A stretch of DNA of 55,909 nucleotides, taken from the NCBI GenBank assembly GCA_015903995.1, contig JABMDK010000011.1:36796-92704 (forward strand), given 5' to 3'. Of the stretch, positions 36,678 through 47,752 are shown piece by piece (position 1 is the stretch's first letter; each line of letters opens with the position of its first letter). A program made the position numbers and the translations under genes. Under the pieces are notes generated by a model, which worked only from the letters and a program-made list of their open reading frames with translations, searched no databases and was not told the DNA's origin. The stretch comes from Nitrospira sp. (lineage in GTDB: Bacteria; Nitrospirota; Nitrospiria; Nitrospirales; Nitrospiraceae).

Positions 36678-36758
36678 AGAGCCCCTCTGGATCCCTTCAC
36701 TCGTTTTGTCGGGATGAGTTAGTGTTGAGGAGTGTCTAACAACAGTCAAAGGAAGTTC

Positions 36759-37955
36759 ATGGGGTTGGGTGAAGGTTTCTATCGACTCAAGCGACTCCCG
36801 CCGTACGTGTTTGCGCAAGTTCAATCGCTCAAGCTTGAGGCTCGCCAACGTGGGGAAGACATTATTGATTTCGGGATGGGAAATCCCGATCAACCGACCC
36901 CGCCGCATATCGTCGAGAAGATGATCGAGGCCGCCCGCAAGGGAAAGAATCATCGGTACTCAGCCTCGCGCGGCATCACCAAACTACGGCATGCGATTTG
37001 TGGGTGGTACAAGCGGAACTACGAAGTTGACCTGGATCCGGAGACGGAAGCGATTGTCACGATCGGATCAAAAGAAGGTCTCGCGCACTTGGCTTTGGCC
37101 TTGATCGGTCCCGGCGATGTGGTCCTGACCCCGACGCCGACCTATCCCATCCACATGTACAGCTTCATCATTGCCGGTGGTGAGGTCCGCGGTATCGAGC
37201 TCCGCCAGGATAGCGATTTTTTCGAAGATCTGACGCGGGGCTATCGGCAGACATTTCCAAGGCCGAAGATTCTCGTGATTAATTTCCCCCATAATCCCAC
37301 GACGGCCGTCGTGGATTTGGAATTTTTCAAGAAGATCGTAGCGTTTGCCAAGGAGCACAACGTCATCGTCATTCATGACCTCGCCTACGCCGACCTGGTG
37401 TTCGACGGGTATAAGGCACCAAGCTTTCTTCAGGTCCCGGGCGCCAAAGACTGCGGGGTAGAGTTCTATACCTTGTCTAAAGCCTACAACATGCCGGGTT
37501 GGCGGGTGGGTTTTTGTGTGGGTAATCGAGAGGTCGTCGGAGCGTTGGCAAAGATTAAGAGCTATCTCGACTATGGTATTTTTCAACCAATTCAGATCGC
37601 CAGCGTGATTGCCTTGAATGGCCCTCAGGACTGCGTCAAAGAGACGGTGTTGCGGTACCAAAAACGCAGGGATGTGCTCGTGGGTGGGCTGAATCGGATC
37701 GGCTGGCAAGTCGCAAAGCCCCTCGCAACCATGTTTGTGTGGGCCCGTATCCCCGTACCCTATCGCCACATGGGATCTTTGGAGTTTTCCAAGCTCTTAC
37801 TCAAAGAGGCAGAGGTGGCCGTTTCGCCGGGGATCGGATTCGGTGAAGGCGGTGATGAATACGTGCGCTTCGGGCTGGTGGAAAACGAACATCGTACCAG
37901 ACAAGCCGTCCGGGGAATTCGCAAAGCGCTCAAGCTGGATGGGGACGAAGAATGA
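36759..37955 (+). CDS. AlaC-like class I aminotransferase
   Basis: A 398-aa PLP aminotransferase close to AlaC (glutamate-pyruvate transaminase) and to LL-diaminopimelate aminotransferases. [28 protein letters not shown] and the PLP-lysine block [16 protein letters not shown] are clear. ATG 36759 is preferred because AAGGA lies 5 nt upstream; GTG 36732 would add nine residues. It opens the operon, overlaps hom by 4 nt (ATGA), and in that context might serve alanine, or the lysine/threonine branch, as amino donor. The exact substrate cannot be read. Confidence 0.88.
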
Positions 37956-39265
37956 GATCGCGCATCGGAGTCGGGATCGTCGGGTTCGGTACCGTCGGCA
38001 CCGGAGTCGCCAAAATTCTTCTCGCTAACGCAGCTCTTATTACACGTCGTGTCGGTGTGCCGGTCGAACTTGTTCGTGTGGCAGATCTGGATATTGCCAG
38101 AGAGCGTGGCGTCGCCTTACCCTCCGGAGTGTTGACCACCGACAGTCGACAGGTTCTGGCTGCTCCGGACATCGATATCGTCGTTGAACTCATCGGCGGA
38201 TATGATACGGCGAAGCGAGTCATCCTGGATGCGATCGCGGCCGGGAAGCATGTAGTCACCGCCAACAAGGCGCTTCTAGCGCTTCATGGAGAAGAAATCT
38301 TCGACGCGGCTGTGCGCAAGGGAGTGGATGTCGGATTTGAAGCCAGCGTCGGCGGCGGGATTCCTGTTATTCGTGCGTTGACGGAGGGGTTAGCCGGCAA
38401 TACGATCGAATCCATCTACGGCATCATCAACGGGACGTCCAACTATATTTTATCGAGAATGACCCGCGAGGGGCACAGTTTCGAGGACGTGCTTGCCGAT
38501 GCACAACGAGCCGGATATGCCGAAGCTGATCCGACGTTTGATGTAGCCGGGATCGATTCGGCGCACAAGCTGGCCATCCTCGTCAACCTTGCGTATGGAA
38601 CACCGGTCAACTTCAAAGACATCTATACGGAAGGGATCACCAACATCACGCCGGTCGATATCGCCTACGCGAAGCAGTTTGGTTTCACGATTAAGTTGCT
38701 CGGGATCGCGAAGCTCGTGGACGGAGAGATTGAGGCGCGGGTGCATCCTACGATGCTCCCCTCGGTGTCCCCGATTGCCCAGGTTGAGGATGTGTATAAT
38801 GCCATCCAGCTCGTCGGTGATGCGGTCGGTGACGTCGTTCTCTATGGGCGAGGGGCCGGATCCATGCCGACAGGGAGTGCTGTGGTCAGCGACGTGATTG
38901 CGATCGGACGGAATCTTTTGCGAAACAGCACCGGTCGCGTCCCCGTGGCGTCGTTCCAGCAGGATCAGCGACGGCCGATTCGGCTGAGATCGATGGAGGA
39001 GATCAGCTCTCTCTATTACCTCCGGTTTACCGTCGTAGATCGACCTGGGGTGCTGGCGCAGATCGCCGGTGAGTTGGGACGCTGTGGAATCAGCATCTCC
39101 TCGATGGTGCAACAGGGGCGCCGTGAGGGACAGACTGTGCCGATTGTCATCAAGACACATGTGGCGAAGGAGCGGGATGTCCAAACCGCGTTGCGGGAAA
39201 TCAATCGGAAGGCGTTCGTCTCCGAGCCGCCGACGCTGATTCGTATCGAAGGCAAGGATGAGTGA
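37952..39265 (+). CDS. hom: homoserine dehydrogenase
   Basis: A 437-aa homoserine dehydrogenase, monofunctional with a C-terminal ACT domain. The N-terminal NAD(P) site is [23 protein letters not shown], the EASVGGGIP motif and the catalytic region [12 protein letters not shown] with [20 protein letters not shown] follow. The ACT domain (about 350-425, [21 protein letters not shown]) is where threonine would bind for feedback inhibition. It converts aspartate semialdehyde to homoserine; overlaps the preceding gene by 4 nt. Confidence 0.97.
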
Positions 39266-39268
39266 TCG

Positions 39269-40327
39269 ATGAACCCTTGGCGTGGAGTGATTGAGGAATA
39301 CCGTAAATTCCTCCCCGTGACGGAGAAGACTCCTGTGATCAGCCTGGGAGAGGGCAACACCCCTCTGATTCGGGCCGCGAGATTGGCTCAGGCCATCGCA
39401 CCAGGAGTTGAACTCTATCTGAAGTTCGAGGGGGCCAATCCAACCGGTTCCTTCAAGGACCGCGGCATGACATTGGCCATCTCGAAGGCCGTGGAAAGCG
39501 GCGCGCGGGCCGTGATGTGCGCGTCGACCGGCAACACCTCCGCCTCGGCCGCCGCCTACGGTGCGCGTGCCGGGTTGTCTGTTTTCGTGTTGATTCCAGC
39601 CGGCAAGATCGCAATGGGCAAGCTGTCTCAGGCGATGATGCATCAGGCCACGGTGATTCAGATCGAAGGCAACTTTGATCAAGCCCTAGCGCTCGTCAAG
39701 GAGTTTTCGGCGACACTGCCCATCGAATTGGTGAACTCGGTGAATCCCTTCCGGATTGACGGGCAGAAGACCGGGGCCTTTGAGGTGTGCGATCAACTTG
39801 GCGAGGCTCCGGCTCTTCATGTGTTGCCGGTCGGGAACGCAGGAAATATCACGGCCTATTGGAAAGGGTACCAAGAATATCGTGCGGCCAATAAGATTAC
39901 GAGGGTACCTCGCATGATGGGATTTCAAGCCGCCGGTGCTGCTCCGATCGTGTTAGGGCGAGTCGTCGATCAGCCACAGACCATTGCCACGGCCATTCGG
40001 ATCGGTAATCCTGCCAGCTGGTCTTCCGCGTTGAAAGCGGTCGAAGAATCCGCGGGGGCGATCGATCTGGTGACAGATGAGGAAATTCTCCAAGCCTATA
40101 CCACGGTGGCAGCAACCGAAGGGGTCTTTTGTGAACCGGCTTCTGCTGCGTCCGTCGCCGGCGTCGCCAAATTGCATCGAACCAGGGGTTTGCGAGAAGG
40201 AGAGACAGTCGTATGTACATTGACAGGACATGGCTTGAAAGATGCCGATACGGCAATCGGTGTGTCGAAACAACCGCAGACGGTCAAGGCGACGCGCGAG
40301 GACGTTGCCCGTCTGTTGAAAGTCTGA
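39269..40327 (+). CDS. thrC: threonine synthase
   Basis: ThrC, 352 aa, fold-type II PLP enzyme that converts O-phosphohomoserine to threonine. The PLP lysine lies in [11 protein letters not shown] (about residues 50-60). [26 protein letters not shown] and [11 protein letters not shown] (phosphate/PLP binding) complete the signature. It starts 3 nt after hom. Its substrate requires a homoserine kinase; no ThrB is present in the operon, and the following gene takes that place. Confidence 0.97.
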
Positions 40328-40343
40328 GCGACGTGTGGATCTT

Positions 40344-41552
40344 ATGAAATATGTGATTGTGCATGCCGGTGGAATGGCTCATCACCCACAAGAGGAACTG
40401 GGCGGTCGGACGCCGCTCCAAGTGGCTGCGACTCCTCATCTCGATCATCTGGCACAGAGCGGAGAGATGGGTCGGTTGATGATTCCCGCCGACGGAGTGC
40501 CCCATGGAGGTGGATTGGTCGGCACTGCGATCCTCGGGTACGATCCCAAGAAGTTTTATCCGGGTCCTGGACCGCTTGAAGCGGCAAGTTTAGGTGTGTC
40601 CGGGACGGAGCAGGACGTCGTGTATCGCTGCACGATGGTCACCGTGGTGCCGGAGAGCGGGAAGGGCGGTGAAATCAAAAAATTAGGTCCGCACGTCATC
40701 ATGGATGACGGAACGGCCGGGCTGATCGAAACCGAAGAAGCCCGCGAATTGATCGAGGCGATCAATGAGCAGCTCGGTTCCGAGACGATCCAATTCTATC
40801 CCGGCGTGGGTCATCGGCATCTCATGGTATGGGTGAAGGGGAAGCCGCGAGCGATCTGCACCGATCCGCAGACGATACTTGGTCAATCCATCGCGGATGC
40901 CTTACCCAAAGGCGATGGAGCCGATATTCTACGCAAGTTGATGGATGCGGCCTATTTCATCTTGCGCGATCATCCGCTTAACGAGGAACGGATAGCCGCG
41001 GGGAAGAAACCGGCGAATTGTATCTGGCTCTGGGGCGAAGGGCGAGCGGTCATGTGGCCGAGTTTGGTTGAGAAATACCAGGTCACGGGGGCGGTCGTGG
41101 CGACCAACGACGTTCATCGCGGTGTTGGAATTTGTGCAGGTCTGGATGCTGTGGACCCCGATCGGCTGGCCGGTGGTGCTCTCCATGCGAAGGCGACCGT
41201 GGCGTTGGCGGAACTTGCCAAGAGAGATTTTGTGTATGTCCATGCCAAGTTGGCGGATGAGGTGATCCACGGCACTGATATCAAAGCCAAAGTGCAGGGG
41301 ATCGAAGAGTTCGATCGTCATCTCGTCGGTCCGTTATTCGATGGCTTGTCCAAACAAGGTCCCTATCGTTTCCTTGTGGTCTGCGATCATACCGCAGGAA
41401 TCGAGGGGCCGGCGTTCTATGCGTTTGGTGAAGGAGGCGGAAAGGGATCCGAGACCGTCGGCCGCCGATTCACTGAGGCGGATGCTCTCGCAGCGAACAT
41501 GCCTACCCGTGATGCCACGAAGTTTGTCATGAAGTTCTTCTCAAAGAGCTGA
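40344..41552 (+). CDS. ApgM-like protein (proposed homoserine kinase family), key catalytic residues missing
   Basis: A 402-aa relative of archaeal-type cofactor-independent phosphoglycerate mutase (alkaline phosphatase superfamily). Relatives encoded next to hom and thrC in genomes lacking thrB have been proposed as homoserine kinases. Family blocks are intact: [43 protein letters not shown], and [16 protein letters not shown]. But the first metal-binding DGxAD is GGMAH (G9, H13); PPGSD, with the nucleophilic Ser, is PHGGG (Gly56); and the C-terminal DHSTP...KAH motif is reduced to [11 protein letters not shown]. The central Asp and His (LADEVIH) remain. Ordinary phosphomutase chemistry is therefore unlikely. 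ATG 40344 is chosen by alignment; GTG 40335 is possible. Confidence 0.85.
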
Positions 41553-41557
41553 CCGCT

Positions 41558-42778
41558 GTGGCACTGATCGTCCAAAAGTACGGTGGAACGTCTGTCGGAA
41601 CGATCGAACGAATACACCGTGTCGCCGACCGGGTGGCTCACACTCAGGGAGAAGGGAATCAGGTCGTCGTCGTCCTCTCGGCGATGAGCGGGGAAACGGA
41701 TCGACTGCTCAAGCTCGCCCATGAAGTCACCGCTGTTCCAGATGACCGCGAATTGGACATGCTGCTCTCCACAGGCGAGCGGGTGACCATTGCGCTTCTG
41801 TCGATGGAGTTACGGGGGCGCGGACTCAATGCCCGGTCCTTTACGGGACGTCAGGTCGGCATCATTACGGATAGTGCCCATACGAAAGCGCGGATTGCAC
41901 GAGTCACAGCGGATCGTATTAAGGAGGCCTTGAAGCAGGGCGTCATCCCGGTCGTGGCCGGATTCCAAGGGATCAATGAGCAATCCGATGTGACCACGCT
42001 CGGTCGCGGAGGGTCCGATCTCTCCGCTGTGGCGCTGGCGGCAGCCTTAAAGGCGGATCGCTGCGTCATCTTCACCGACGTCGATGGGGTGTATACGGCA
42101 GATCCCAACATTGTGCCGGCGGCGAGGCGGATCGACAAGATTTCGTATGAAGAAATGCTGGAGATGGCCAGTCTTGGCGCAAAAGTGCTCCAGACCAGAT
42201 CGGTTGAATTTGCGGCCAAATTCAATGTGCCGGTTGAAGTGAATTCCAGCTTCAAGGAAGGAAAGGGAACGCTCGTGACGAAGGAAGATACGGACATGGA
42301 GGCAGCGGCGGTCTCCGGCGTGACCGGCGACCGGAATCAGGCGAAGATCACGATTGTCGGCGTACCCGACAAGCCAGGCATCGCCGCCAGGATTTTCGGC
42401 CCCGTCGCGGAGGCCCATATCAATGTCGACATGATCATCCAGAACATCAGTCAGGCGGCCCTGACAGACCTCTCCTTTACCGTGCCTCGCGCCGATCTCA
42501 AGAAGGCCGTGCCGCTCATTCAAACCGTCGCCAAGGATATCGAGGCTAAGTCTGTCTCAGTGACTGAAGCCATCGCCAAGGTGTCGTTGATCGGAGTCGG
42601 GATGCGGTCGCATTCCGGCGTGGCGGCAAAAATGTTCGAGGTGCTGTCCCGAGAAGGCGTCAATATCATGATGATCAGCACATCCGAGATAAAAATCTCC
42701 TGCGTCATCGAGGAGAAATATCTCGAACTGGCCATGCGATCGCTCCATTCGGCATTCGATCTGGATCAGACTTCCTGA
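41558..42778 (+). CDS. lysC: aspartate kinase
   Basis: Monofunctional aspartokinase, 406 aa, first step of lysine, threonine and methionine synthesis. The kinase domain has [10 protein letters not shown] at the N-terminus, [19 protein letters not shown] and [13 protein letters not shown]. Two C-terminal ACT domains (about 265-330 and 345-400) provide the allosteric site for lysine and/or threonine. GTG 41558 lies 5 nt after the ApgM-like gene. No internal alpha/beta start is proposed, though such starts occur in some relatives. Confidence 0.97.
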
Positions 42779-43022: not shown

Positions 43023-45182
43023 ATGGCCAAGATAGAAGATTTGATAGCTCAAATCCCGGATGAACGTCTGCGCAAAGGCATTGCCGCCGAAGTGAAGGCG
43101 TTGAAGAAGTCGAAGAAGTTCGGGTTGGTATTTGAAGAGCACTTGCCAGAGACGGTGCGTCTGCCTCGATTGCCGGTGAAGCCCGGCGATCTTGTAGCGT
43201 TAAAGTGGGAGTCTGGGAATCAGCTGTGGCGCGTCAAAAGTATCAAGAAAGGGATTGCCACATGCGATCGTGCAGTCGAAGGCTATTCTGAGGCTAAGGA
43301 TGCGAATCGAGAGTTCGCTGTTTCCGACCTCGTCGTCGTTCTGAATTTTGGCGATCCCATCTATCCAGCTCTTGTGCCGGTGGATCGTGTCGAACGAGGC
43401 GGGTCTGACAAACCGTGGCACGTGCTGATCAACGCCGACAACTTTCACGCCCTCCAACTCCTTCTCTATTGCTACGAGGGCAAGGTGGACGTGATCTATA
43501 TTGACCCGCCTTACAACTCAGGCGCGCGCGACTGGAAATACAACAACGATTACGTCGATAAGACCGATTCGTTCCGGCACTCGAAATGGCTTTCGATGAT
43601 GAAGAAGCGGCTGCTGCTTGCGAAACGACTTTTGTCTAAGGACGGCGTCTTGGTAATCACAATCGACGAAAACGAAGTCCACCACTTATGTTGCTTGCTG
43701 GAAGGAATTTTCTCAGGGGAGGTTCTTCAACAAGCAACTATTGTCATCAATCCGAAAGGAGTAACGCAGGGCAGATTTTCACGCGTTGAGGAATTCGCGG
43801 TTTATCTTTTCCGGCCTGGCGCAATGCCTGCGGGCAAAGCGGACGACTTACTGACCCCAGAGCCAGATGAGGGCTTTGAAGCAGTCGGGGGCCGTGAGCC
43901 ACGATGGAAGGGCCTTCTCCGTTCTGGAACAAATGCGCGCCGCGAAGACCGAGAGAATATGTTTTTCCCGATCCTGATTGATGAAGCAAAGAAAAAGATT
44001 GTGGGTGTTGGGGAGCCGCTGCTTGAAGGCGAGCCCGTCTTAGGCAAGAAGGTGAAGGGCTTTGCGGCTGCGTGGCCAGTCAGGACAAATGGGCAATGGG
44101 GGAATTGGGGTGTTGGCCACATCACCCTCAGAACACTTATTGACCAAGGATACGTGTCTCTCGGTGAGTTTGACGACGAGCGGAAGACATGGGCAATTTC
44201 ATACCTGAGCCAACAACTCCGTGAGCAAATTGAAGGTGGGATTCTTGAAATAATTGGGCGTGATCCTGTTACCAACGTCGTCAAGGTGCGGTATGCCGAG
44301 GTAGCGGATCGCCGAATAAAAACCGTTTGGAAACGTTCGAGACACGATGCCGGAGCCTATGGCTCGGCAATGCTCAAGGATCTTCTCGAAAGAACAGAAG
44401 CGTTCTCATTCCCAAAGTCCCTGTATGCAGTGGAGGATGCAATATTGCCTCTCGTTAGGACTAAGAAGCGTGCAGTGATTCTCGATTTCTTCGCTGGTTC
44501 AGGTACCACTTGTCATGCAACATGTCTGATGAATTGGCGTGATGGTGGAAGCCGCATTTCAATCTCGGTTACGAACAACGAAGTCAGTGCTGAACAGGCG
44601 GCCAAGCTTGCCGCGTCAGGGCATTTTCCAGGAGACGAGCCGTATGAGTCTGCGGGCGTTGCGAACGCTGTGGCTTGGCCGCGAATCAAGGCTGCCATTA
44701 CGGGCGTTGCGGGATCAGGTAAATCGCTTGGTGGCTCCTACCTTGGGTGTGATGAAAATGGAGTCGGCAGAGACTTTGCCATGGGATTTGCCGAAAACAT
44801 TGAACACTTCCGGCTAGATTTTCTCGACCCTGACGAAGTTGCGCGCGGCAATGCCTTCCAAGCAATTCTGCCGATCTTATGGATGATGGCAGGATGCCAA
44901 GGGCCGCGAGAGGATTTCAAAGGTTCGCAGCCGTGGTTTATCCCCAAGCACTCGCCGTTTGCTGTGCTGATCAAAGAAAGAGAGTTTCGTGCGTTCCGGG
45001 TGAGGCTCTCAGATCGCAAGGACATTGGGTGGGTATTCTTGGTCACGGACTCGGAAGAGAACTTTTCCCTCATGCGGCGTACTCTGGGTAGCAAGGTGGA
45101 ATGTGTCCAGCTCTATAAGAGCTATCTCGAAAACTTTCGGCTCAATACACCTGAAGCGCTTGGCCAGGTTGAGGCGTCATGA
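43023..45182 (+). CDS. mod: Type III-like DNA methyltransferase (Mod), beta-class N6-adenine
   Basis: A 719-aa Mod protein of a Type III-like restriction-modification system. It methylates adenine in an asymmetric site, which cannot be read from sequence. The beta-class order is seen: catalytic IDPPYNSG at about residues 160-167, then after the central target-recognition region the AdoMet site DFFAGSGTT at about 487-495. An N-terminal helical/SH3-like part (PVKPGDLVALKWESG) precedes. The C-terminal 150 residues resemble the Res-contact part of such Mods. It overlaps res by 4 nt (ATGA). Codon use looks more AT-rich than the neighbours, consistent with acquisition by transfer. Confidence 0.92.
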   Translation: MAKIEDLIAQIPDERLRKGIAAEVKALKKSKKFGLVFEEHLPETVRLPRLPVKPGDLVALKWESGNQLWRVKSIKKGIATCDRAVEGYSEAKDANREFAVSDLVVVLNFGDPIYPALVPVDRVERGGSDKPWHVLINADNFHALQLLLYCYEGKVDVIYIDPPYNSGARDWKYNNDYVDKTDSFRHSKWLSMMKKRLLLAKRLLSKDGVLVITIDENEVHHLCCLLEGIFSGEVLQQATIVINPKGVTQGRFSRVEEFAVYLFRPGAMPAGKADDLLTPEPDEGFEAVGGREPRWKGLLRSGTNARREDRENMFFPILIDEAKKKIVGVGEPLLEGEPVLGKKVKGFAAAWPVRTNGQWGNWGVGHITLRTLIDQGYVSLGEFDDERKTWAISYLSQQLREQIEGGILEIIGRDPVTNVVKVRYAEVADRRIKTVWKRSRHDAGAYGSAMLKDLLERTEAFSFPKSLYAVEDAILPLVRTKKRAVILDFFAGSGTTCHATCLMNWRDGGSRISISVTNNEVSAEQAAKLAASGHFPGDEPYESAGVANAVAWPRIKAAITGVAGSGKSLGGSYLGCDENGVGRDFAMGFAENIEHFRLDFLDPDEVARGNAFQAILPILWMMAGCQGPREDFKGSQPWFIPKHSPFAVLIKEREFRAFRVRLSDRKDIGWVFLVTDSEENFSLMRRTLGSKVECVQLYKSYLENFRLNTPEALGQVEAS

Positions 45183-47752
45183 AGCTGGAACTGAAACCAT
45201 TTCAAGAGAATGCCGCGCGGGAAATCATCTGTGAGCTTGATGAGGCGCGGGCTTCGGTCGCCAAAGGAAAACTCCAGGCCGTTATTTTGAGCGCGCCCAC
45301 TGGCTCAGGAAAGACGATTACGCTGGCGCAGGTGATCGACCTCACGTTTGGTGGAGGCGACGGCATTCCATCCAGGCCCCAGACGACATTTCTGTGGCTC
45401 TCCGATTCTCCAGAGCTCAACGTGCAAAGCGGGAACAAGCTTCTTGGCGCATGCGATTTTTTGCCCTATTACAAGATGGTCCGAATCGAAAGCGATGTGT
45501 TCGATGATGACTACTTACAGCCGGGGTATCTGTATTTCATCAACACGCAACTGCTCGGAAAAGACAAGATTCTTACGAAAGAGCCTGGGGATCGACGAAA
45601 GTTTACGTTTTGGCAAACCGTCACCAATACCATATCTCGCGCCCCCCAAGATTTCATTCTAGTTATTGACGAGGCACACCGAGGCGCGACTGCTAACGAT
45701 AGAAATCGGACCACGACCATGCAAAAGTTCATCGTGGGTTCCGAATCGGACGGGTTGCCGCCTGTTCCGCTCGTGCTTGGCATGAGTGCCACGCCGCAAC
45801 GATTTACCACGCTGTTGGGCAATACCAACCGCACGCAACGACCAATCAATATCTCTCCCGAAGACGTACGGTCGAGCGGCTTGCTCAAGGACTGGATCGT
45901 TGTTCGCCACCCAAAAACTGCTGTTGCCGGAGATCTCACCCTTCTTGAAAGCGCTACGAGGAGTTGGAAGCATTTCACGAAGCTCTGGGAAGACTATTGT
46001 ACTCAGGAAAAAGAGAAGAACATCGTCCGCCCGATTCTCGTTGTACAGATTGAGGATGGAAGCGGGAATTCCCTGACGCGTACACCCCTTGATGATGTGG
46101 TACGTGTGATAGAACGTCACAGTGGACCACTGGGCATCAATGAGATTGTTCATTGCCTACACGATCAGACCGATCTTGAAGCGGGTGGGAGAATCATTCG
46201 AAAACTAGACGCTTCACGAATTCAAGAAAGTCAGGATGTCAAAGTCGTTCTCTTCAAAACGGCCTTGTCTACAGGCTGGGACTGCCCGCGCGCAGAAGTC
46301 ATGATGAGTTTCCGCCGTGCACAAGACCAAACCAGCATCGCACAACTGGTGGGCCGGATGATCCGAACTCCGTTAGCAAGACGGATTGGCATGAACGAAG
46401 CTCTCGACACAGTCGAACTCTACTTGCCGCATTATGATGCGGACGCCTTGGAAGCTGTGTTGGAGAGATTACGAAACCCTGATGCGCAGGAGAACGAAGC
46501 TCTCGACACAGTCGAACTCTACTTGCCGCATTATGATGCGGACGCCTTGGAAGCTGTGTTGGAGAGATTACGAAACCCTGATGCGCAGGATGGTGTGCCC
46601 ACGCGCGTCGAGACATCTATCGAAACGTATAGCCGAAACCCCGCAATGGAGAAGGTCTTTGCCCTTCTAGGAAAGTTGCCGACCTATTCCGTGGATCGTG
46701 TCCCACGGATGAGCGATGTGAAGCGCGCTTTGCGTCTGGCTGGGCTGCTGGTCCACGAGGGGGTCGATCTTGACGCCGATGAACAGGTTCGTGATGAGTT
46801 GGTCAAGAAGCTCAAGGGATTGCGCGACAAGTATGCTGCCGAGCGGACGGATTGGGATACTCTTATTAGCGAGGGGGGAGAGATCGAAGTGGATGTCTCC
46901 AGAATTGCAACTGGGGGGATGCAGGTTGAAGGTAAGACATCAAGCCGGGTGTTGTTAGTCGAAGAGAATATTGACCAGTTGTTTGACGAAGCGGGCCGCA
47001 TGCTGGCATCGGGAGAAGGTCTACATCGAACCTATTGGAAGCGTTATCACGATCGAGGCTATCCGAACCATGTGAAGCTGGAGTTGTTTGCTGTGCTTGG
47101 TCAACCTGAAACGCTCACTGTTATGGAGCGTCTCAGTAAACAATTGTTCAATGAGATGTGGAAGAAGCACAAAGCTGCCATTCAGCCACTGCCTGCGTCA
47201 GTCAGGGGGCGATTTCAATCACTCATACAAGCGGCTGGCGAAGCTGCACAGCAAGTGTGGGAATTGCCCACACAGATTGTTGAAAAAAAGGAAGGAGATG
47301 TCTGGGAGAAACATCTCTACTGCACGGCAAGTGGCGGGTTTAGCGCGAAGCTGAACGGATGGGAAAAGGAATTACTGGAACAGGAAATAAAAAAAGAGGG
47401 CTTTGTCGCTTGGCTGCGGAATCTGCCGCGGCGTGAGTGGGCGCTTTGCATTCCGTATGAGCTGGCAGGTAAAAAGCCATTCTACCCAGATTTCATTATT
47501 GTTCGAAAGAGTGGAAGAGGGTTGGTTGCTGATGTGCTAGAACCGCACGATGATAGCCGGACCGATACATGGGCCAAAGCCAAAGGGCTCGCTGAATTTG
47601 CCGATAAACATGGGATCGATTTCGGGCGACTTATTATTGCTAGGAGAAAAGATAAGACTTGGCACATGGCAGACGTAAATGACATGAAAACTCGGGCCAA
47701 AGCTCGGAAAATGCAGTCAGCCAGCGATCTGGAAAGTTTGTTTGGGATGTAA
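45179..47752 (+). CDS. res: Type III-like restriction enzyme helicase/nuclease subunit (Res)
   Basis: An 857-aa SF2 translocase. Motif I is APTGSGKTITL (about 40-50), motif II VIDEAHRGA (about 161-169), motif III GMSATP, and motif VI QLVGRMIRTP (about 386-395). Directly after motif VI a 33-residue unit is present twice in a row (406-471). The C-terminus carries a PD-(D/E)xK-like nuclease signature, YPDFIIV then VADVLEPHD, a variant common in this Res branch. Restriction requires Mod for site recognition. Removing one repeat would give an ordinary-looking protein, so function may persist. Confidence 0.9.
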   Translation: MKLELKPFQENAAREIICELDEARASVAKGKLQAVILSAPTGSGKTITLAQVIDLTFGGGDGIPSRPQTTFLWLSDSPELNVQSGNKLLGACDFLPYYKMVRIESDVFDDDYLQPGYLYFINTQLLGKDKILTKEPGDRRKFTFWQTVTNTISRAPQDFILVIDEAHRGATANDRNRTTTMQKFIVGSESDGLPPVPLVLGMSATPQRFTTLLGNTNRTQRPINISPEDVRSSGLLKDWIVVRHPKTAVAGDLTLLESATRSWKHFTKLWEDYCTQEKEKNIVRPILVVQIEDGSGNSLTRTPLDDVVRVIERHSGPLGINEIVHCLHDQTDLEAGGRIIRKLDASRIQESQDVKVVLFKTALSTGWDCPRAEVMMSFRRAQDQTSIAQLVGRMIRTPLARRIGMNEALDTVELYLPHYDADALEAVLERLRNPDAQENEALDTVELYLPHYDADALEAVLERLRNPDAQDGVPTRVETSIETYSRNPAMEKVFALLGKLPTYSVDRVPRMSDVKRALRLAGLLVHEGVDLDADEQVRDELVKKLKGLRDKYAAERTDWDTLISEGGEIEVDVSRIATGGMQVEGKTSSRVLLVEENIDQLFDEAGRMLASGEGLHRTYWKRYHDRGYPNHVKLELFAVLGQPETLTVMERLSKQLFNEMWKKHKAAIQPLPASVRGRFQSLIQAAGEAAQQVWELPTQIVEKKEGDVWEKHLYCTASGGFSAKLNGWEKELLEQEIKKEGFVAWLRNLPRREWALCIPYELAGKKPFYPDFIIVRKSGRGLVADVLEPHDDSRTDTWAKAKGLAEFADKHGIDFGRLIIARRKDKTWHMADVNDMKTRAKARKMQSASDLESLFGM
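46393..46590 (+). repeat. exact 99-bp direct tandem duplication within res
   Basis: 46393-46491 and 46492-46590 are identical over 99 nt (33 codons), so the reading frame is kept. The encoded unit starts NEALDTVELYLPHYDADA and ends ERLRNPDAQ. Perfect identity means either a very recent duplication or an assembly artefact. Confidence 0.95.

Follow-up and report, generated by a model that had tools for sequence, protein, structure and literature searches.

How does an organism make O-phosphohomoserine when the gene that occupies the expected place in its threonine operon encodes a protein without a catalytic centre, and what does that protein do instead? This question is raised by a gene, here called X, in the 55,909-nucleotide stretch of Nitrospira sp. 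DNA that we analysed (the window; contig JABMDK010000011.1). X (positions 40344..41552, plus strand) encodes 402 amino acids and begins with an ATG at 40344 that is conserved among its relatives. It lies between thrC for threonine synthase (39269..40327, plus strand) and lysC for aspartate kinase (41558..42778, plus strand). Upstream are hom for homoserine dehydrogenase (37952..39265, plus strand) and a class I/II aminotransferase gene (36732..37955, plus strand), which is the first gene of a conserved row. The original prediction gave the open reading frame, its frame and its coordinates exactly. It held that the locus calls for a homoserine kinase, and that the odd motifs of X point to a new kinase mechanism, to a regulatory or structural role in the threonine pathway, or to a different reaction.

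An ApgM-type protein in a threonine operon

Matches to PF10143 (147 bits; phosphomutase domain at 40452..40982, plus strand) and PF01676 (51 bits) place X in the ApgM/alkaline-phosphatase superfamily. On TIGR00306 (apgM) it scores 336 bits, above the cut-off of 320. On TIGR02535, the family named as a proposed homoserine kinase, it scores 320.8 bits, well below the cut-off of 446.3, and full-length matches across the Nitrospirales score 265-342 bits. As TIGR02535 asks of its members, X adjoins genes of the threonine pathway. An AlphaFold2 model of X (mean pLDDT 77.6, pTM 0.76) has the archaeal ApgM fold, matching 2zkt_B with a Z score of 32.1 and an rmsd of 2.9 over 348 aligned residues. Its full-length fold (Z 26-32) and two-domain layout resemble those of the archaeal ApgM phosphoglycerate mutases (PDB 2zkt, 3kd8, 3idd), but X is about 25% identical to these enzymes, has no catalytic serine and is incomplete at both metal sites.

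Catalytic decay across a lineage

In the iPGM of B. stearothermophilus, S62 is the nucleophile and D12, D403, H407, D444, H445 and H462 are ligands. We take the corresponding positions of X to have had the same roles by homology. In an alignment of 145 relatives, the 30 Nitrospirota proteins scoring above the TIGR02535 cut-off were used as canonical rows, and in these the DG, PGSD, PDEA.H and PDH.TP...TH motifs are essentially invariant. In X, G9 (40368..40370, plus strand) stands where the canonical rows have the metal-ligand Asp of DGxxD. The former nucleophile loop (residues 51-62; 40494..40529, plus strand) reads HGGG at the canonical PGSD and keeps one of eight canonical-invariant columns. 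The metal-ligand pair D305-H309 (canonical PDEAGH; 41256..41270, plus strand) is retained, as is D348-H349, which is followed by a segment from which the last His of the canonical DHPTP...THT is deleted (41385..41417, plus strand). X does not carry the complete catalytic centre, comprising the serine and two metal sites.

The residues G9, H13 and G55-G56-G57 and the C-terminal region read the same as in the original prediction, although two of the losses that it described need qualification. Residue 56, the canonical nucleophilic Ser, is Ser in 42, Gly in 33 and Ile in 2 of 77 sequences from the genus; its loss is real in this X but is not a fixed trait. Likewise, D9 and the last His are gone, but D305/H309 and D348/H349 are still present in this protein. 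The substitutions recur well beyond this assembly: Asp never occurs at position 9 (0/77; Gly in 68, Ala in 8, Glu in one), and residue 57, the canonical Asp after the Ser, is Gly in 77/77. All 77 sequences keep D305 and most keep H309, D348 and H349; the C-terminal segment with the last His is missing. A frameshift, which had also been denied earlier, or a misassembly as the source of these motifs is ruled out by the unbroken frames found genus-wide.

Beyond the genus, the site is altered to different degrees. Among 30 sequences from other Nitrospiraceae, D9 is mostly kept, H309 is replaced by Tyr in 22, and position 349 is never His (Ser, Pro, Gly or Trp). Proteins of family f2 of the Nitrospirales are nearly intact (DGMGD, PG[GST]D, CNHATP): Asn replaces one metal Asp and, in some, Gly or Thr replaces the Ser. 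Families f1 and f3 have more site loss than f2, and f3 is without nearly all catalytic residues. Catalytic decay is thus common to the genus and, in graded form, to the order Nitrospirales, and is not the peculiarity of one odd protein. The central observation, that of a conserved scaffold in a threonine operon from which phosphoserine chemistry is gone, holds across the lineage.

Descent in place and repeated loss

Other Nitrospirota encode an intact TIGR02535 protein at the same spot, in the order thrC-TIGR02535-lysC. Among the 30 canonical loci, examined with flanks of 1.5 kb, thrC adjoins the gene in 19 and lysC in 20. The row aminotransferase-hom-thrC-X-lysC is kept in the Nitrospirales, and in the tree the canonical proteins stand apart from f2 while X and f3 form one supported branch. 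This shared gene order and the tree identify X as a positional orthologue of that proposed homoserine kinase and not as an import. It resembles members of TIGR02535, such as BT2402 of B. thetaiotaomicron, in fold, domains, thrC-lysC position and descent. It differs from them in scoring below the family cut-off, in lacking the nucleophilic Ser, first metal Asp and last His, and in having ten invariant residues swapped.

X is also being lost. It is missing in Leptospirillum-like and other Nitrospirales lineages, and in five genomes (G036, G039, G045 and G052 (f3), and G037 (f4)) lysC comes straight after thrC across a gap of ~70-190 bases. Several stops make X a pseudogene in G058 (L236:6864-7988), and in G048, from the same genus, it has an open frame; this pair reveals a loss in progress. 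Four genomes of the genus of our X (G001, G015, G026 and G029) yielded no match to X, possibly due to assembly incompleteness. A 774-residue open frame in L034 hinted at a ThrC-X fusion, which was rejected when thrC and X were found to match separately there.

A candidate source of O-phosphohomoserine

The threonine synthase of this operon is ordinary, matching PDB 2zsj with 497 bits over a span that includes the NSVNP.R motif region, and O-phosphohomoserine is therefore presumably still needed in the Nitrospirales. The original prediction had proposed searches for thrB and for another homoserine kinase. A profile search for GHMP-type thrB gave nothing over the cut-off among 59 relatives, and TIGR00938 (APH-type kinase) gave only weak matches below the cut-off among 18 relatives. 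Two GHMP matches in the genome of our X were rejected as thrB, one being ispE-like and adjoining prs and the other sugar-kinase-like. A second shikimate-kinase relative of the DvMF_0971 type was also set aside: this genome has a single SKI match, and weak second matches occur in only 5 of 18 genomes.

The search for a different enzyme was answered by ThrH, a phosphoserine:homoserine phosphotransferase encoded away from the operon in all Nitrospirales tested. Two papers that refer to Singh et al. 2004 (PMC1079889; PMC5764234) describe ThrH as moving phosphate from phosphoserine to homoserine, and not as an ATP-dependent kinase. Its profile, TIGR02137, was matched over the cut-off in 16/16 Nitrospirales of a first test set. 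In a sample of 148 genomes from the phylum, it was matched in 37/37 Nitrospirales versus 0/111 others; the TIGR02535 cut-off was exceeded in 72/148, none of them Nitrospirales. The ThrH of our genome (P0002; contig C62, L239:1486-2100) is unlinked to the threonine operon and belongs to TIGR02137, with 304 bits against a cut-off of 223.4. It is identical to P. aeruginosa ThrH (PDB 1rku) at 124 of 197 positions (63%) and keeps the HAD motifs DLEG, SDT, K and GDSYND. X and ThrH occur in the same genomes, but ThrH has an unrelated HAD fold and would be a replacement for X in its former step rather than a relative.

SerB was not matched over the cut-off among 19 Nitrospirales, and for this reason ThrH probably also completes serine synthesis there as a phosphoserine phosphatase. 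We infer that ThrH makes O-phosphohomoserine in vivo in these organisms. Nitrospirales members that lack X still carry hom, thrC, lysC and ThrH. The claim that a homoserine kinase is needed at this locus does not stand, and since all the Nitrospirales genomes tested have ThrH as a known way to O-phosphohomoserine, a new kinase mechanism for X loses its appeal. Among the papers covered by our literature search, none describes X, or a ThrH from Nitrospira or Leptospirillum.

Probable displacement of the operon enzyme

The explanation that we consider probable is that ThrH displaced the operon enzyme and that X in the Nitrospiraceae is now a selected, non-catalytic protein, most likely a sensing or assembly partner. 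X is a descendant, at an unchanged locus, of the proposed homoserine kinase of ApgM type found in other Nitrospirota. The unlinked HAD enzyme, using phosphoserine as donor and probably doubling as phosphoserine phosphatase, would have taken over the conversion of homoserine to O-phosphohomoserine. X, presumably freed from catalysis in this way, shed its nucleophile and metal site stepwise, and was deleted or pseudogenised in several lineages. The surviving Nitrospiraceae proteins are held by purifying selection and remodelled in their pocket; they would be non-catalytic and most likely serve as ligand-sensing or assembly partners of the co-encoded threonine and lysine pathway enzymes. Displacement predicts that genomes without a working X should have ThrH, and the six in which X is absent or broken (the five with directly adjoining thrC and lysC, and G058) all do.

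Some observations count against displacement. The mutual exclusion of ThrH and intact TIGR02535 involves one clade and may reflect a single event. ThrH could act as a phosphoserine phosphatase only, a reading that gains weight because SerB was not found. In addition, two genomes of the same class do not fit: G182 (L230), which belongs to another order, combines a dead X with SerB and has no ThrH, and G188 (L231), from outside the Nitrospirales, has neither X nor ThrH.

If displacement is correct, the Nitrospirales provide a natural replacement experiment for the TIGR02535 family. TIGR02535 proteins occur in many prototrophs that seemingly lack thrB, and the family is only a proposed homoserine kinase (GapMind; PMC7311316). 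Mutants of BT2402 need threonine, and BT2402 does not rescue E. coli thrB (PMC7311316). That the TIGR02535 active site has disappeared where ThrH is present supports the view that the family originally made phosphohomoserine. ThrH may also account for the homoserine-kinase gap of nitrite-oxidising and comammox Nitrospira, in which it possibly couples serine and threonine synthesis.

Selection and the present role of X

Among 265 close pairs analysed by the Nei-Gojobori method, X has a mean dN of 0.088 and dS of 0.88 (ratio ~0.10), and thrC has a dN of 0.039 and dS of 0.73 (ratio 0.054). Full-length copies across the genus have an open frame. X in the Nitrospiraceae is under purifying selection and is not junk. 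In 107 Nitrospiraceae sequences, 51 of the 119 canonical-invariant columns are kept (>=95%), a single new residue has become fixed in 10, and 58 are variable. Retention is low in the C-terminal quarter (4/21), as in the nucleophile loop described above. The scaffold and second domain have been held and the catalytic centre let go. From this pattern we infer a present role as a non-catalytic pathway protein, with X most likely a pseudoenzyme that retains a binding or partner function. Among the alternatives first raised, a regulatory or structural role in the pathway is the one favoured.

Other readings must be weighed against the same data. It is conceivable, though rather unlikely, that X is a re-purposed ApgM-fold protein, either a new enzyme or a metabolite sensor, whose newly fixed pocket carries out or controls an aspartate-family step. 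Less likely still is recruitment to a new reaction, possibly in aspartate-family metabolism, in which the new residues form a different active site in place of the lost phosphoserine mechanism. Ten canonical-invariant positions are now uniformly different in the Nitrospiraceae (R75P, N97T, L98M, H127L, S156G, Y157H, P174D, S226C, K259R and G391A), residues 106-213 are the most constrained part of the protein (dN/dS 0.060), and PhpG, a TIGR00306 relative, is named as carrying out other chemistry (NF038358). However, the remaining metal-ligand positions differ between genera, as seen in H309Y and the varied replacements of H349, and no new catalytic constellation was found.

We consider it improbable that X remains a homoserine kinase, working by a new mechanism that needs neither the Ser nor a full metal site. 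The operon position, the purifying selection and the lack of thrB or TIGR00938 matches over the cut-off all speak for a kinase, but ThrH is present throughout the Nitrospirales, members without X keep thrC, and the catalytic loop is gone along with formerly invariant pocket residues. There is equally little reason to believe that X is merely a relic without function that is being lost. It is gone from several lineages, is broken in G058, and evolves at 2.5 times the rate of thrC versus 1.7 times for the canonical family; set against this are the low dN/dS, the full-length open frames and 41 positions that are fixed in the Nitrospiraceae and differ from the canonical majority. Finally, X is hardly a working cofactor-independent phosphoglycerate mutase, as the name of TIGR00306 would suggest, because the nucleophile and first metal ligand are missing, even though it passes that cut-off and no iPGM (TIGR01307) exceeded its own cut-off in the Nitrospiraceae, a result that, covering the cofactor-independent type alone, says little.

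With the pseudoenzyme reading preferred, X would be a conserved pathway pseudoenzyme within an amino-acid operon and a good test case for a family that is widely mis-annotated. Because X-type proteins score above the apgM cut-off, they are at risk of being labelled phosphoglycerate mutases in annotation despite their missing catalytic centre.

Genes beyond lysC

After lysC, the window carries a methylase/ResIII pair that resembles a type III restriction-modification system (43023-47752). In the related genome L104, an HMGL-like/LeuA-dimer synthase is next instead, and the pair may be an insertion. The Res-like protein (45179-47752) contains a direct in-frame repeat of ~32 residues, with NEALDTVELYLPHYDADALEAVLERLRNPDAQ occurring twice, which is possibly a recent duplication or an assembly effect.
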